This document shows, piece by piece, positions 48,763-54,515 of a DNA stretch of 64,000 bases. Below the pieces are notes generated by a model, which saw nothing but the letters and a program-made list of their open reading frames with translations, made no database searches and was not told the DNA's origin. Position 1 is the stretch's first letter. Each line of letters begins with the position of its first letter. The DNA is from an uncultured Erysipelotrichaceae bacterium (lineage in GTDB: Bacteria > Bacillota_I > Bacilli_A > Erysipelotrichales > Erysipelotrichaceae): assembly GCA_900314905.1 (NCBI GenBank), contig OMXA01000007.1, positions 27,208 to 91,207 on the forward strand, given 5' to 3'. Position numbers and translations under genes: made by a program.

Positions 48763-48768
48763 GAAGTA

Positions 48769-48795
48769 AAAAAAGGTCACCGAATGACCTTTTTT
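48769..48795. terminator. Bidirectional terminator between glgA and minus-strand lipoprotein gene
   Basis: An 11-bp perfect stem (48769-48779 with 48785-48795) flanked by A and T runs. The stop codon of the minus-strand gene is embedded in it. Confidence 0.92.
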
Positions 48796-49330
48796 AATAA
48801 CTCATATTCTTGACTTCATATGCAACAAGATCGGCAGCGTTTGAAGTAACCTGTTCCATGAGTTCCGTGTAAGCAGAGTCTTCTGTCGCATACAGGTGAC
48901 GAGTGCCATCTGATATTGTCTTGAGACCGCTTTGGTAGAAATAGACGATCTTTCCATCTTCCGGCTGTACCATATAAACGAGATCGGATTGCGTGAATTC
49001 GATATCCGTTTCTGTGAAGGAGAAGGAAGTGATCTCTTTCTGAAGCAGTTCAATGTTGGTGGTGCCGGCCAGTTCAGACATCTTTAACCATTCCTGAACT
49101 GCCTCTGATTCGTCCACTGGTGATTGATTGCTCAGCCATCCGGTGGAGTAAGAGCGAGGTTTTCCATTGGCAGTGATGGTCAGGGGAAGTTCATACTGCA
49201 TCTCTAAAACATCATTCTTCAGAAATGCAGATACTGCCTCATCTGACTCAATCAGACTGGGAGAAGAAGTACATCCTGAAAGCAGGAACAGGGGAATCAC
49301 AATCATGGCAGTTCTCTGAATCAATTTCAT
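48794..49330 (-). CDS. Lipoprotein of unknown function
   Basis: A 178-residue predicted lipoprotein with the lipobox L-L-S-G-C (Cys20). The mature part is acidic with alternating helices and strands and carries no domain I recognise. On the minus strand AAGGAGG precedes the ATG at 49330. It is the last of three minus-strand genes (small membrane protein and a damaged lipoprotein gene lie upstream), all exported or membrane-bound, so this looks like an accessory cell-surface cluster. Confidence 0.75.
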   Translation of the reverse strand: MKLIQRTAMIVIPLFLLSGCTSSPSLIESDEAVSAFLKNDVLEMQYELPLTITANGKPRSYSTGWLSNQSPVDESEAVQEWLKMSELAGTTNIELLQKEITSFSFTETDIEFTQSDLVYMVQPEDGKIVYFYQSGLKTISDGTRHLYATEDSAYTELMEQVTSNAADLVAYEVKNMSY

Positions 49331-49351
49331 AGGTCCTCCTTGCATGCATGA

Positions 49352-49531
49352 TTACAGCGATGACTTATGCCTCATCGAAGAAGCGGTATATCGGATAACA
49401 ATCGGGCAGAGGAATGCGGTAACGCCGATTCTGATTGCTGAAACCAGTCCTTCTGCCGCCAGATAGACCAGAAAGAAGATCATAGCAATCATTAGCGACT
49501 GAATCAGTACGGTATACTTTCTGATTTTCAT
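49352..49531 (-). CDS. Small membrane protein, 59 residues
   Basis: A basic start (M-K-I-R-K-Y) leads to two hydrophobic helices (about 8-26 and 29-47) and a basic tail R-H-K. AAGGAAGAAC precedes the ATG at 49531. It lies 21 bases before the lipoprotein gene on the same strand and may be co-transcribed. No family known to me. Confidence 0.55.
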   Translation of the reverse strand: MKIRKYTVLIQSLMIAMIFFLVYLAAEGLVSAIRIGVTAFLCPIVIRYTASSMRHKSSL

Positions 49532-49681
49532 AAAGTTCTTCCTTTCTGTTCTGTGAAGTTTGTTTTCAGTGAGGAACATTCATGCATAATAAATGCTCTG
49601 ATGAGATGAATTCCTCACTTCAGAATAATGAATTCATTCTGATGAAGAACTTCAACTTCCTGTTTCTCTTCATCGGAAACA

Positions 49682-50299
49682 TCAGCAGATCCCATCTGAG
49701 GTATTGCAAAGCACATAGTTCTGAAAATCCACCCCATCAATCGATGCATAGTTCCAGTTGTACCAGTACAACCCATATCTGCTATCTGACTTCTGAAGCG
49801 GATTAGCAATTTCCCGGTTGAATTTCAGAGCAAGGTAAATCCGATCTCCTTCCTCTGCCTTTTCTCCGGTAATCCGCAATTCAAGATCCAGGAGCGGTGA
49901 CAGAACTTCGACTGATACAGAATCATCAGACTCTGTATCTCGGAAGGTAAACCAGGAATACCCATCTTCCGACGAAAGGTATTCTGCCTGGATCTGACCA
50001 GGAAACCTGGTAACTTCTGCCTCTGGTTCAGTATGGTGAATATAAGTCGGTGAGATTGCACTTTCATCGACAGCGGTATAGATGATTCCAGTATCGGCAT
50101 CCGTATAAGAAGTCGGTTCAGGAACAGATGTTTCTGAAGACGAGGATTCTGGTACTTCTGCAGTTCCAGAAGGAACTGCAGTGCTTTCTGATGTGGATTC
50201 CAGAGATGGAGATGGACTGCTGGAAACCTCTGCTGGTGAAGAACAAGAAGTAAGCAATAAAGAACTGAAAACCAGTATGATACTGAGAGAATTTCACAT
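49682..50299 (-). pseudogene. Lipoprotein gene with a stop at codon 2
   Basis: On the minus strand AAGGAAGG lies seven bases before ATG (50299-50297), and the very next codon is TGA (50296-50294). The same frame then continues for over 200 codons. Ignoring the stop, it would be a lipoprotein: N-S-L-S-I-I-L-V-F-S-S-L-L-L-L-T-S-C with the lipid cysteine at codon 19, a Ser/Pro/Glu-rich linker and a C-terminal beta-rich domain. A TTG at 50257 is the next possible start, but it would keep only four residues before the cysteine. A C-to-T change in CGA would explain the TGA. The reading frame shows no other damage. Confidence 0.65.
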
Positions 50300-50349
50300 G
50301 GCAATGCCTTCCTTTATCACTAACCTAGCAGAAAATCTGATTGGAAACA

Positions 50350-50790
50350 ATGACTGAGCGAACATTTTATCTAAAGGTTTTCTTAAGTTTCAGCAATTTC
50401 ATTTTCGTATGCCCGGCAAAATATCGTCGCGTCGTCATAGACAAAAATATCGACGAATCAATTAAGCAAATATGCGCAGGCATCGAACTTAGGTACGAAT
50501 GGATCGAGTTACTGGAAATCGGGACTGATAAAGATCATGTGCATTTTCTGATACAGTCGACACCAGATCATAGTCCAAGCGAGATCATTCGTACCGTAAA
50601 AAGTTTGATTGCCAGGCGCATATTTGCTGAACACCCTGAAGTTAAGAAACAGTTATGGGGAGGAGAATTCTGGAGAGACGGATATTGTGTCTCAGCGGTT
50701 GGTAAGAATACCAGCGAAAACACGGTCCGAGAATGCGTGAAGAATCAAGGTACACAAGATTCATACAGACAGCTTTACTTCAAGTTCTGA
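50350..50790 (+). pseudogene. IS200/IS605 Y1 transposase TnpA, catalytic Tyr replaced by Cys
   Basis: A 146-residue single-strand transposase of the HUH/Y1 family. The HUH pair is intact (H63-V-H65 in D-H-V-H-F-L-I), and A-K-Y-R-R-V-V-I near the N-terminus and W-R-D-G-Y later are typical. In the last helix, where active enzymes have E-Y-x-x-N-Q, this copy reads E-C129-V-K-N-Q. A single A-to-G change (TAC to TGC) would do this. Without the tyrosine it cannot cut DNA in the normal way. No tnpB follows; a folded structure does. There is no good ribosome site; the ATG at 50350 fits the family start. Confidence 0.8.
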
Positions 50791-50809
50791 TCGCCGCAGG
50801 ACGAAGATA

Positions 50810-50872
50810 CCCCGGGCCGGAAGGCTTGCCTTCCGGGCAAGCGCCAGTGGACGCTTGAGGCTTGTCCCGGGG
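50810..50872 (+). repeat. Nested palindrome forming a three-way junction after tnpA
   Basis: CCCCGGG (50810-50816) pairs with CCCGGGG (50866-50872). Inside are two hairpins: a 9-bp perfect one (50817-50825 with 50828-50836) and a 6-bp one (50838-50843 with 50852-50857). It lies 20 bases after tnpA, where IS200/IS605 elements carry the right-end structure. Confidence 0.75.
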
Positions 50873-50980
50873 AAATTCATTGATGTAACTACTTAATATT
50901 ATTAATTGATTTGGAACATCAGAATTTGGGTATAAGGATATAGTTATTGCAGCAATCTGACATTCCATAATCTTTAACTG

Positions 50981-51388
50981 CTAATTGTTTAAGGCAACTG
51001 AGCAATAAGTGGCATTTGTATTCTCAGAGGTGTAACTATCCGTATACCCGCCTTCTAATGCAAAATCATATCCGATTCCAGTAATGTCATAATATACTAC
51101 TTTTACACTATATCCACTAAGCCAGCCGTTACTTCCAAAACTTCCAAACTTATATTCTGTTCTTGCTATTCTATACGGAACTTTCACTGTTCCACGCAAT
51201 TCTCTTGCATAATTTCCGTTTCCACTAGCGCAAAAAGCAGAAATTAACGTGTCGCTCATGACAATCATTGGCTCATCAGGATTAATTGGATTTTCGGGAA
51301 CGTCTGTTTCATATGCTGATACAGGAAGCAGTGATGTTCCAAGAACAAGTGCAGCGACAGAAATCATTTTTAACAAATGTTTAATCAT
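50981..51388 (-). CDS. Small secreted protein of unknown function
   Basis: A 135-residue protein with a clear signal peptide (M-I-K-H-L-L-K ... cleavage after V-S-A near residue 25). The mature part (about 110 residues) is beta-rich, Tyr/Gly/Ser-rich, and has two cysteines that could form a disulfide. GGAGGAC precedes the ATG at 51388. It lies in the AT-rich block next to, and divergent from, the agr-like operon, so it could be a target of that system (inference). Its overall design recalls the damaged secreted protein at 19.3 kb, but the sequences are only loosely alike. Confidence 0.7.
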   Translation of the reverse strand: MIKHLLKMISVAALVLGTSLLPVSAYETDVPENPINPDEPMIVMSDTLISAFCASGNGNYARELRGTVKVPYRIARTEYKFGSFGSNGWLSGYSVKVVYYDITGIGYDFALEGGYTDSYTSENTNATYCSVALNN

Positions 51389-51803
51389 ATTGTCCTCCGT
51401 TCATCTTTTAATAAAAACAATAATCAAATAGAGTGAGTGATAAAAAGAATAAACGCTTCTCAACAAATTCCTGGTTTCCGCATTTTCCCCTCCTTTTCAT
51501 GATTACCGATGCAACCGGAATTGAAATTTCAAAACTCCGAAAATTTCCTAATTGCAAAATAAATTACTTACCAAAAACTTACAAATCAATCGTGAAAAAT
51601 TGAAGAGATTCAAGGAAATTAATCATGATGTATTAAACGTGAGAGGTGTTTATTGCTCAATATATTGAGATTTATTTGATATAAACCATGAGCAGAACAA
51701 CAACCATAATAAATTTTTCCGAGATTAACAAAAAAATGGATAATTTTCTTCATCACATAATTATCCCATAAATATGTAGATGGTTAAGCTTTAAATTAGA
51801 ATT

Positions 51804-51833
51804 CGTGAAAAAACGGCTTTCAAGCGTGAAAAA
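51804..51833 (+). promoter_or_regulatory. Direct repeat, probable LytTR response regulator site
   Basis: CGTGAAAAA at 51804-51812 and again, exactly, at 51825-51833. The 12-base gap (21-base period) is the spacing of AgrA/LytTR sites. The repeat ends 14 bases before the -35 of agrB. Confidence 0.75.
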
Positions 51834-51847
51834 TATAAATTGTATTT

Positions 51848-51875
51848 TTGACACCATCTATTAATTTGCTATGAT
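51848..51875 (+). promoter_or_regulatory. Promoter of the agr-like operon
   Basis: TTGACA (51848-51853), a 16-base spacer and TATGAT (51870-51875) with TG just upstream. The predicted start of transcription falls on or next to the agrB ATG at 51883. Confidence 0.75.
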
Positions 51876-51882
51876 TTTTAAC

Positions 51883-52449
51883 ATGAATGGCAAAGGACAT
51901 GATTTCTCGGGATTTAATAATGAGGAAAAAATGTATTTTCTGTATGGTGTGTATTCTGCAGTTTATGATTTTTTGGATTTTTTACCTGTTATTCTAATTG
52001 GAATTTTTTTGCTCCATGATCTTAGCTCTGCACTGACATTTATCATTGTGCTTTCTATATTAAGACAATATACTGGTGGCATTCATGCAAGTACAGTTTT
52101 TGGATGCGTAATTTCGTACTGTTTAGTTTACATTGCATATTATCAATTAAGTGAAATTTTTATGAGTTATTCTGAAATATATTTGATTGCTGTTTGCTGC
52201 GGTGAATATCAATTAGTTACAACTCCCACAATGAACAAGAATAAGCCAATGACAGATAAACAATTGCAGATATGTGGGGAGAAAGCTAGAGGTGTATTAT
52301 CTTTATTATTGATACTGATGCTGATTTCTTATTTTTGGTTTCCCACGTTTTCAGTTAGAATTGCAATGATTATTATTACCAATTTTCTCCTGATAATTGC
52401 TCAGCGGGTGGCAAATTATGAAAGTGATAAAGATTTCAATTCTAGATGA
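51883..52449 (+). CDS. agrB: AgrB-like autoinducer peptide-processing membrane protease
   Basis: A 188-residue membrane protein of the AgrB family, which in known systems cleaves the precursor AgrD and helps form and export a cyclic thiolactone or lactone peptide. The catalytic pair is H68 and C75 in G-G-I-H-A-S-T-V-F-G-C, with the family spacing of seven. Five or six helices are predicted. The ATG at 51871 lies within the -10 TATGAT, so the start is taken as 51883; a later ATG at 51931 has GAGG upstream but would cut into the conserved N-terminus. It overlaps the regulator gene by 32 bases. No agrD was found. Codon use is AT-rich, unlike most of the window. Confidence 0.88.
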   Translation: MNGKGHDFSGFNNEEKMYFLYGVYSAVYDFLDFLPVILIGIFLLHDLSSALTFIIVLSILRQYTGGIHASTVFGCVISYCLVYIAYYQLSEIFMSYSEIYLIAVCCGEYQLVTTPTMNKNKPMTDKQLQICGEKARGVLSLLLILMLISYFWFPTFSVRIAMIIITNFLLIIAQRVANYESDKDFNSR

Positions 52450-53125
52450 TGATCAAAATGATATTCAAAAGATTGCAAAGGTAGTGAATAATCAAACAGA
52501 TGATGAAATTTCTTTTGATATTGAAAGCTTTTCGAGTTCTTCTTACTTGAAGGAACCTTACCTCTCGGACTTATATATCGTAGATATTAAAATGCCTGAT
52601 GATTCGGGTTTTAGCATCGCTGAGAGGATATTGAGCAAAAATAATGGAGCAAAAATCATTTTCTGTACTGCACATGAAAGCTTTGTATTTGATTCCTACG
52701 ACTTAAATGTCTTTTACTTTGTTAGAAAAAGCCATCTTGAGAAAGATCTTAGAAGAGCAATTGAAAAATATCGAAAGATTTCAGCGGGATATTGGTATGC
52801 ACTTCATGGGCGCGAGAAAGCGGACTCCTTGATTCCTTTTAGTAAAGTAATGTATTTGCATACCCAGGGAAACAATACGTTGATTATGTGTGCGGATGGA
52901 AAAGAGTATGTTGATCATCATCCTTTGCGAACAGTTTCTCAGTCTTTTCCGGAGGATAGATTCTGTGCGATTTCTAGTTCTTGTGTTGTGAATTTAGCTT
53001 TTGCTACAAAGATTGAGCACAACAGTATTATTCTCTCTGATTCCAAGCATATTCCAATTAGTGGCGCGAGAATTATCAAAGTGAAACAGAAATATAATCA
53101 ATACCTGATGGAGATGATGGCATGA
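52418..53125 (+). CDS. AgrA-like response regulator (receiver plus LytTR)
   Basis: A 235-residue response regulator. The receiver domain (1-120) has acidic D10-D11-D12, the phosphoacceptor D56 in V-D-I-K-M-P, and a late Lys region. A LytTR DNA-binding domain covers about 130-232. Proteins of this kind bind 9-bp direct repeats 12-13 bp apart; such a repeat lies upstream of agrB, which suggests self-activation. The ATG is at 52418 with GGGTGG upstream. It overlaps agrB on the left and the kinase by four bases on the right. Confidence 0.92.
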   Translation: MKVIKISILDDDQNDIQKIAKVVNNQTDDEISFDIESFSSSSYLKEPYLSDLYIVDIKMPDDSGFSIAERILSKNNGAKIIFCTAHESFVFDSYDLNVFYFVRKSHLEKDLRRAIEKYRKISAGYWYALHGREKADSLIPFSKVMYLHTQGNNTLIMCADGKEYVDHHPLRTVSQSFPEDRFCAISSSCVVNLAFATKIEHNSIILSDSKHIPISGARIIKVKQKYNQYLMEMMA

Positions 53126-54414
53126 TTTTTGATGCAATAATCAATTTTCTTGAGGCCTGCCTTTATGGTGCATTTTTTTGGCGGATTTCCGACAAAAATC
53201 GGATGAAAAAAGTAATTGGTCTAGTGATATATATACCAGTTCATTTCCTCCTTTTTTCCTATGTTAATGCATCATCGATCATGGCTGGAAATCTAAGCGT
53301 GATCATATACCTGCTTGCTTATCTTTTTCTAACAATTGGTTCAGATTATTCACCGCAGGAAAAGTTGTTTTTCTCAATTATTCCTGACCTTGACACTGCA
53401 GTGATCAACACATATTTGATCCTATTTTCTTCTTATTTCTGGCTTGGAAAAATTGATGTTCTTCAGATGCTCGAGCATCATGGAACTAGCGTCACTCTTA
53501 TTTCTAAAGTTTTGCAGTTTTTCTGCTTCCGTTATTCTGCAGAGATTTTGAATCAAAAAAAAGATTATCTAGATAGAAAAGAATTTCTACTAGCCGCAGG
53601 AATTGGATTTTTATGCCTTACAATATTCAACTCGATTGAAGAGCTTTTGTTTTATCAAAGATTTGATGGAACAAAAATTGCGATTGCAGTTCTGTGTCTG
53701 GGGGCACTTGTTGTGCTTTCTGGGATTGAAATTGTGCTTGCCGTGAAACGAAATCAGAAGATACGCGAACAACAGAAAATTAATGATATGATCTCTCTTC
53801 AGTTGAGAAATACAAAAGAGAATATTAGAGTTTCAGAAGCATTATCACGGATAAAACACGATATTCGGCATATGGTTTCATTGCTTGCGGATAGTGGAGT
53901 TTCTGATGAGACTATCAGAGCATATGAGCAGGAGCTTAACTCTGCAGAAGTTCCTATTCAGACCGGAAGCCAGATTCTGAATTACATTCTGCAAACCGAA
54001 CAGGAAAGGGCTGCAGTAAAAGGAATACATCTTCATTGCATGTTAAATATTACGTCGAAGCCTTTTCTTTCTGAAGAAGATTTGATTGTGCTTGTGATGA
54101 ATAGTTTAGATAATGCAATTCAGCATATCAGCAATGGAAATGAAATAAAGTTTACGCTGAAGTCCAATGCAGAGGTTTTTTTGATTAAAGTAGAGAATCC
54201 CGTTGATCATCAGAGATTCGCAGATTATCTAGATTACCTAAAACAAGGGAAAAGAAGTAGAAAATATGGTCTTCGTTCAGCAAAGGTGATCGCAGAAAAA
54301 TATGGAGGCGACATTCTAGTGAAATGTGAAGATGGCGTGTTCTCTTTTTCTGCGGTGGCACATGCAGAAAAGGACAAACTGGAGGGGCGGAAGAGGCTCC
54401 TAGATAAGGATTAG
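53122..54414 (+). CDS. AgrC-like sensor histidine kinase (GHKL)
   Basis: A 430-residue membrane kinase. About six helices span residues 5-208. The phosphoacceptor region I-K-H246-D-I-R-H follows, then a GHKL ATPase domain (about 320-420) with the N box M-N-S-L-D-N-A and the G-L-R-S-A lid. This is the AgrC/ComD class, which senses a peptide at its membrane domain. It shares a four-base overlap with the regulator gene. The order B, regulator, kinase differs from Staphylococcus (B-D-C-A). The island ends here, and host-like composition resumes at pgk. Confidence 0.9.
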   Translation: MIFDAIINFLEACLYGAFFWRISDKNRMKKVIGLVIYIPVHFLLFSYVNASSIMAGNLSVIIYLLAYLFLTIGSDYSPQEKLFFSIIPDLDTAVINTYLILFSSYFWLGKIDVLQMLEHHGTSVTLISKVLQFFCFRYSAEILNQKKDYLDRKEFLLAAGIGFLCLTIFNSIEELLFYQRFDGTKIAIAVLCLGALVVLSGIEIVLAVKRNQKIREQQKINDMISLQLRNTKENIRVSEALSRIKHDIRHMVSLLADSGVSDETIRAYEQELNSAEVPIQTGSQILNYILQTEQERAAVKGIHLHCMLNITSKPFLSEEDLIVLVMNSLDNAIQHISNGNEIKFTLKSNAEVFLIKVENPVDHQRFADYLDYLKQGKRSRKYGLRSAKVIAEKYGGDILVKCEDGVFSFSAVAHAEKDKLEGRKRLLDKD

Positions 54415-54475
54415 ACGAATTGCTGAAAGTATCGTGGAAACGCCGCTTTGCTCGTTTACTCACATGTTTTCGGGG

Positions 54476-54484
54476 TGCTATAAT
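54476..54484 (+). promoter_or_regulatory. Extended -10 promoter of pgk-tpiA-eno
   Basis: TG-C-TATAAT with TATAAT at 54479-54484. No good -35 hexamer; the TG extension may replace it. Confidence 0.65.
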
Positions 54485-54515
54485 ATGAACGCAAAAAGGA
54501 GGAGATTCATCATAT

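Follow-up and report, generated by a model that had tools for sequence, protein, structure and literature searches.

A putative divergent agrD gene beside the agrB, regulator and kinase genes of an uncultured Erysipelotrichaceae bacterium

In the staphylococcal agr locus the precursor gene agrD lies inside the agrBDCA operon and the divergent unit is RNAIII. The window analysed here, a 64 kb stretch of DNA from an uncultured Erysipelotrichaceae bacterium, contains an agrB followed by a regulator and a kinase gene, with no agrD adjoining agrB on its strand. A sequence-only reading of the window had reported no agrD candidate upstream either, and had described an orphan AgrB whose peptide substrate was encoded elsewhere or was very atypical. 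This raises the question of whether the locus has its own precursor and, if so, where that precursor is encoded.

The agrB, regulator and kinase genes and the block that carries them

The three genes are genuine and lie in the order agrB, regulator, kinase (B-A-C) between positions 51871 and 54414, as domain matches confirm in agreement with the earlier assignment. Specifically, agrB (51883..52449, plus strand) encodes a membrane peptidase with a match to PF04647 (E 1.4e-20) and is the only AgrB match in the source genome. Its predicted model has six helices and a mean pLDDT of 88, and none of the 246 matches of the model in the PDB reaches E 0.001. The listed open reading frame opens at 51871, but the best promoter-like site (51848-51875) has its −10 hexamer over that ATG, so that 51883 or 51931 are likelier starts; of these we favour 51883, with 51931, which follows a GAGG, as the alternative. 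Counted from 51883 the catalytic residues are H68 and C75 (H72 and C79 in the listed frame), and both are invariant in 16/16 aligned AgrBs. The regulator (52418..53125, plus strand) has receiver and LytTR domain matches, with the receiver Asp and Lys invariant in 12/12, and its ATG at 52418 gives the 32-nucleotide overlap with the end of agrB (52449) noted earlier. The membrane GHKL kinase of AgrC type (53122..54414, plus strand) overlaps the regulator by 4 nucleotides, and its H246 and N327/N331 are invariant in 16/16. The order B-A-C is unusual, as had been said, when set against agrBDCA, but it is common in this clade.

The genes stand in DNA that was probably inserted, a block between glgA and pgk (48763..54515). 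All 13 of the lowest-GC 500-nucleotide windows of the 64 kb fall within 51001-54500, which bears out the contrast with the flanks that had been described. Long pgk matches were available from 26 relatives (three partial pgk loci being excluded); in 11 of these the end of glgA lies 16-207 nucleotides before pgk, whereas in the window the two genes are 5.75 kb apart and the intervening DNA is lower in GC and includes an open reading frame for an IS200-like transposase (Y1_Tnp domain match; 50341..50790, plus strand), which adjoins the block of agr genes. Upstream of pgk the four relatives nearest by that gene carry other genes, so this place is variable. Taken together these data support as probable the earlier suggestion of transfer, and the agr block was likely acquired in this way. 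Within 48763-50340 the block also holds two minus-strand frames for lipoprotein-like or exported proteins (48794-49345 and 49682-50257).

A probable agrD-like gene on the opposite strand

The finding that the sequence-only reading had named as one that would refute it, a conserved agrD-like frame in this region, within about 2 kb of agrB, was made on comparison with relatives. In the window the corresponding frame, which the sequence-only reading had overlooked, is at 51619..51753 on the minus strand, divergent from agrB and on the far side of a direct repeat, and could be aligned with 20 relatives. Its position and orientation are those of the D genes (as we call this family) seen in relatives. 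It would encode a 44-residue precursor, MKKIIHFFVNLGKIYYGCCSAHGLYQINLNILSNKHLSRLIHHD, with an amphipathic N-terminus, the core CCSAHGLYQ and a tail, starting from the ATG at 51753 or possibly from a GTG that precedes it at 51756.

In the alignment of 21 D peptides the Ser and Gln are invariant and most members share two elements, S-x-x-[GA]-x-[YF]-Q as the core and D-x-R-x-L-K after it. Four of eight pairs have low dN/dS, at 0.03 (L054/L056), 0.03 (L068/L069), 0.08 (L069/L070) and 0.11 (L068/L070); three further pairs gave 0.25, 0.44 and 0.28, and in the eighth dS was saturated. D is a real gene under purifying selection in these relatives. Comparison with a set of five AgrD-type peptides from collinear loci, among them one that reaches 34.5 bits with TIGR04223, gave the family an hhalign probability of 96.7% and E 4.3e-10. 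The divergent D of L058, although truncated at the end of its contig, has 20.9 bits against TIGR04223 and passes its cut-off of 19; four of the 21 members match this profile at E<=1, one of them known to exceed the cut-off. On these profile comparisons the divergent D family is AgrD-like.

The window copy is a more diverged case. It keeps the Ser, Gly, Tyr, Gln and Leu of the family and lacks its Asp, Arg and Lys. With the window frame held out, a profile of 11 relatives ranked it first among 897 window frames at a weak E of 0.29, and two of the 775 window frames below 100 residues contain the motif S..[GA].[YF]Q. (In the later D-profile searches of genome, genus, family and order its E-values are inflated, since the frame was itself in the alignments used.) It has no match to TIGR04223, and by our estimate its length alone would not make such an open frame improbable. 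Close relatives of the exact window locus were not found among 61 genomes, in which the best AgrB has 32% identity, nor in a second search. We consider the window agrD very probably a diverged member of the divergent D family, and it is by way of this weakly scoring copy that the locus would encode an AgrD precursor.

It could be argued instead that this AgrB has lost its own precursor and acts on an atypical peptide from elsewhere, the minus-strand frame being a decayed relic or a chance frame. This would be consistent with the weak held-out score, with a ribosome-binding site that is weak in the window and strong in many relatives' D genes, and with L059, a B-A-C locus with no recognisable D in the divergent upstream position. 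However, the frame is placed and oriented as in the family and retains both the invariant Ser and Gln and the Tyr, and it is the only D-family match in the source genome at E<=1 (in a profile whose alignment included it). No other AgrD in that genome exceeds the TIGR04223 cut-off, the matches being only at E of 1 or more, and sub-cut-off matches to this profile also occur in 10/14 control genomes; the genome thus offers no rival candidate peptide. Loss of the precursor therefore seems to us improbable, and the sequence-only picture of an orphan AgrB is not supported, as a conserved divergent D is present. Among other small frames near agrB on both strands, none was seen to recur in relatives except D, and a plus-strand frame ending in CSIY (51552-51668) was not among the D-profile matches. 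At the D position of L059, near L059:3960-4538 (minus strand), there is a 26-codon frame with a strong ribosome-binding site and no D core, followed by a lipoprotein-like gene.

The divergent arrangement recurs in the genus. In the same genus 15 loci share the window's order of agrB, regulator and kinase, 14 of them with all three genes (agrB of L072 is in two frames) and one, L057, ending after B-A at a contig end. A complete divergent D lies within 200 nucleotides of the agrB frame in 10/15 (L052, L053, L054, L056, L057, L062, L063, L066, L070, L072); of the remainder, L058 has the D cut by the contig end, in L068 and L069 it lies 2.1 kb upstream, L059 is described above, and L060 has just 94 nucleotides of DNA upstream of agrB. 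Across 71 genus genomes 32 AgrB matches exceed the cut-off. Read from match coordinates, 18 of them have D divergently upstream (within about 2.2 kb), six have it collinear, after agrB (in two of the six at no better than E 0.095 and 0.53), and for eight D was not found, one of the eight (G084:C62) being at a contig end. At E<=0.001 D is present in 16/17 genus genomes with an AgrB over the cut-off versus 2/54 without; the first of these figures is partly circular, because loci of this kind supplied the D profile.

Family-wide, D was found in 25/273 genomes and 6/59 genera, and an order-wide draw of 295 added one match outside the family, a weak one (7.8e-4). In other genera the divergent D / B-A-C layout is seen in L217, L218, L221 and L224, where agrB is short, while L225 and L226 have all of B-A-C-D on a single strand. 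Collinear loci of the same family, with related D peptides and the same AgrB family as the window, are G026, G030 and G074 (B then D) and G103:C2 and G232 (B-A-C-D); their D is on the strand of agrB, whereas that of the window is opposite. Anaerorhabdus furcosa ATCC 25662 (G103, NZ_FUWY01000001.1) has one divergent and one collinear locus, and a third D that adjoins a kinase fragment (L222). The sister contigs are named Solobacterium sp. or Erysipelotrichaceae bacterium, many of them from rumen or gut samples.

The intergenic repeat and the proposed circuit

Between agrD and agrB lies the direct repeat CGTGAAAAA-N12-CGTGAAAAA (51804..51833), so that the LytTR-type repeat reported upstream of agrB is real. 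It has 9 exact bases at period 21, a result matched by a fraction of about 0.003 of 300 shuffles, and it occurs in exact form once in the source genome, with five other places at 2-3 mismatches (three for a backwards control). It is a probable binding site of the LytTR regulator. A fixed consensus, GTGANAAACGG, misses the window site, and our claim is thus limited to the repeat itself. Exact repeats of at least 7 bases at period 20-22 were found in 8/18 loci (the window, L053, L054, L056, L058, L062, L066, L133) and in none of the other 10. The repeat of L056, 11 bases at period 21, was absent from a first scan because its agrB frame opens too early. D copies with no adjoining AgrB match have 7-9 bases at period 20-21 in the second and third copies of L111, L112, L113 (where D is near a contig end) and L114, and 6 bases in L115 and the second copy of L218, these being raw counts.

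A sigma-70-like promoter for agrBAC, TTGACA-16-TATGAT (51848..51875, plus strand), has 11/12 consensus matches. On the minus strand a weaker promoter-like site for agrD, TTAACC-16-GATAAT (51760..51787), has 9/12 with a TG before the second hexamer, and taken alone is not above chance; nor is the promoter scan overall, with 15 sites versus 14.4 expected from shuffles. With both predicted promoters transcription would begin at the start codon itself or beside it (51753 for agrD, 51883 for agrB), so the agrD and agrB mRNAs could both be leaderless.

We propose, with considerable though not full confidence, that the locus is a complete agr-type quorum-sensing circuit which is split and divergent and uses a Ser-type ring signal. 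According to this model agrD (51753-51619, minus strand) would give a short precursor, from which AgrB would cut the C-terminal tail and close a ring on the conserved Ser, forming a lactone. In the window copy two Cys stand just before this Ser, which makes its ring chemistry uncertain, and a thiolactone on one of them is conceivable. The exported cyclic peptide would be sensed by the AgrC-like kinase, which would phosphorylate the LytTR regulator; this in turn may bind the 21-bp-phased repeat and activate agrBAC, and probably also the agrD operon, which may include an exported protein.

The components of this model, AgrB, an AgrD-like precursor, an AgrC-like kinase and a LytTR regulator, are shared with the agrBDCA / RNAIII system of Staphylococcus aureus. 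The window differs in that agrD is itself the divergent unit, that the order is B-A-C, that the conserved ring candidate is a Ser, and that in place of RNAIII the divergent unit has a gene for a protein, P0005. The Enterococcus fsr signal is a lactone, and the ring predicted from the window sequence would resemble it, and the agr signals of S. intermedius/pseudintermedius, in being a Ser-based lactone; the peptide core of the window's family, S-x-x-G-x-Y-Q, and the gene layout differ. For S. pseudintermedius one report gives the agr signal as a Ser-based lactone (PMC3673130), and an account of S. aureus has the regulator acting on two divergent units, P2 and P3 (PMC8748961), as we propose for the regulator of the window. 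Gene order also varies among clostridial agr loci, and the AgrD profile TIGR04223 is related to the D family; the C. difficile locus is named agrACDB in one source (PMC3754575), and going by this operon name D adjoins B, whereas in the window it is divergent. The agr system is known; its divergent-D layout, conserved in a clade, is a variant of which we found no description in the open-licence literature searched.

Exported partners of D and what the layout would mean

Downstream of agrD by 230 nucleotides and on the same strand is P0005 (50981..51388, minus strand), a 135-residue protein with a signal-peptide-like N-terminus and a possible member of the agrD operon. Neither Pfam nor NCBIfam gave a match for it, and the one PDB row obtained (E 0.36) is not a credible relative. 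In the same genus it has two relatives, at 48% and 37%, and D was seen beside neither of them. In a comparison of 14 exported partners P0005 matched none at E<=0.01. Among these partners those of L063 and L113 are related (25%, 2e-18) and two other pairs are alike in the signal region only; nine partners scanned with Pfam gave weak matches only. The best of these, a sub-cut-off one to a matrixin-like metallopeptidase, is that of the exported protein downstream of D in L066 (L066:5276-5941).

By a rough signal-peptide rule an exported gene follows 16/33 D's versus 9/42 control window genes. Two of the 16 (L063, L076) were matched at internal starts, the N-termini of both being exported-looking by eye. 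By eye the same holds for the rule-negative L113, L114, L115, L226 and L065 (482 nt), and not for L053, L054, L056, L062, L068, L069, L070, L072, the third copy of L111, L116 and L228; in L225 the gene after D is 823 nt distant. Outside the 33 stand the second copies of L111 and L218, L058, L117 (same as L116), L223 and the collinear L120 and L079. An exported or lipoprotein gene overlaps D in L052, L111, L113 and L222, and four frames of two genomes are in-frame fusions in which D is joined to an exported domain with its signal peptide or lipobox (L057:1535-1918, L063:895-1716 and L114:2265-3035 in one genome, L220:2476-3237 in another). One genome (L111 = G021:C119, L112, L113, L052) has six D matches, several overlapping an exported-protein gene, and one exported protein each from L111 and L115, the latter in another genome, have an SG[ST]G[TS]EDDPY stretch in common. 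The coupling of D to such effectors is a pattern seen in these sequences, and any mechanism linking them would be putative.

One may ask whether D is a signal at all, since a D-like peptide that mainly serves as a processed leader for an exported effector, with AgrB as its maturation protease, would fit the frequent exported or lipoprotein gene after D, the four fusions and the D copies that exist apart from agrB in relatives. Against this, most of the loci looked at have, next to agrB, a cognate kinase and a LytTR regulator with invariant catalytic residues, and part of the loci have the LytTR-type repeat between D and agrB. We regard a role mainly as a leader as very improbable, and prefer the quorum-sensing circuit. 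A tentative extension of it, towards which we lean less than away, is that in this family the agr precursor has left the agrB operon and heads exported-effector units, co-encoded or sometimes fused, as several cassettes in some genomes, a few of them behind a repeat of the agrBAC type. Signal and public good would then be made together, possibly as one chain cut by AgrB.

A divergent D escapes annotation that expects agrD to adjoin agrB on its strand, and such AgrB genes would consequently be labelled orphans. If our reading is correct, a group of rumen and gut relatives would signal through a divergent circuit with cyclic peptides of the Ser type, and the fusions of D to effectors would tie the signal directly to the secreted product. 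Anaerorhabdus furcosa ATCC 25662, a named strain with both layouts, makes tests in culture feasible.
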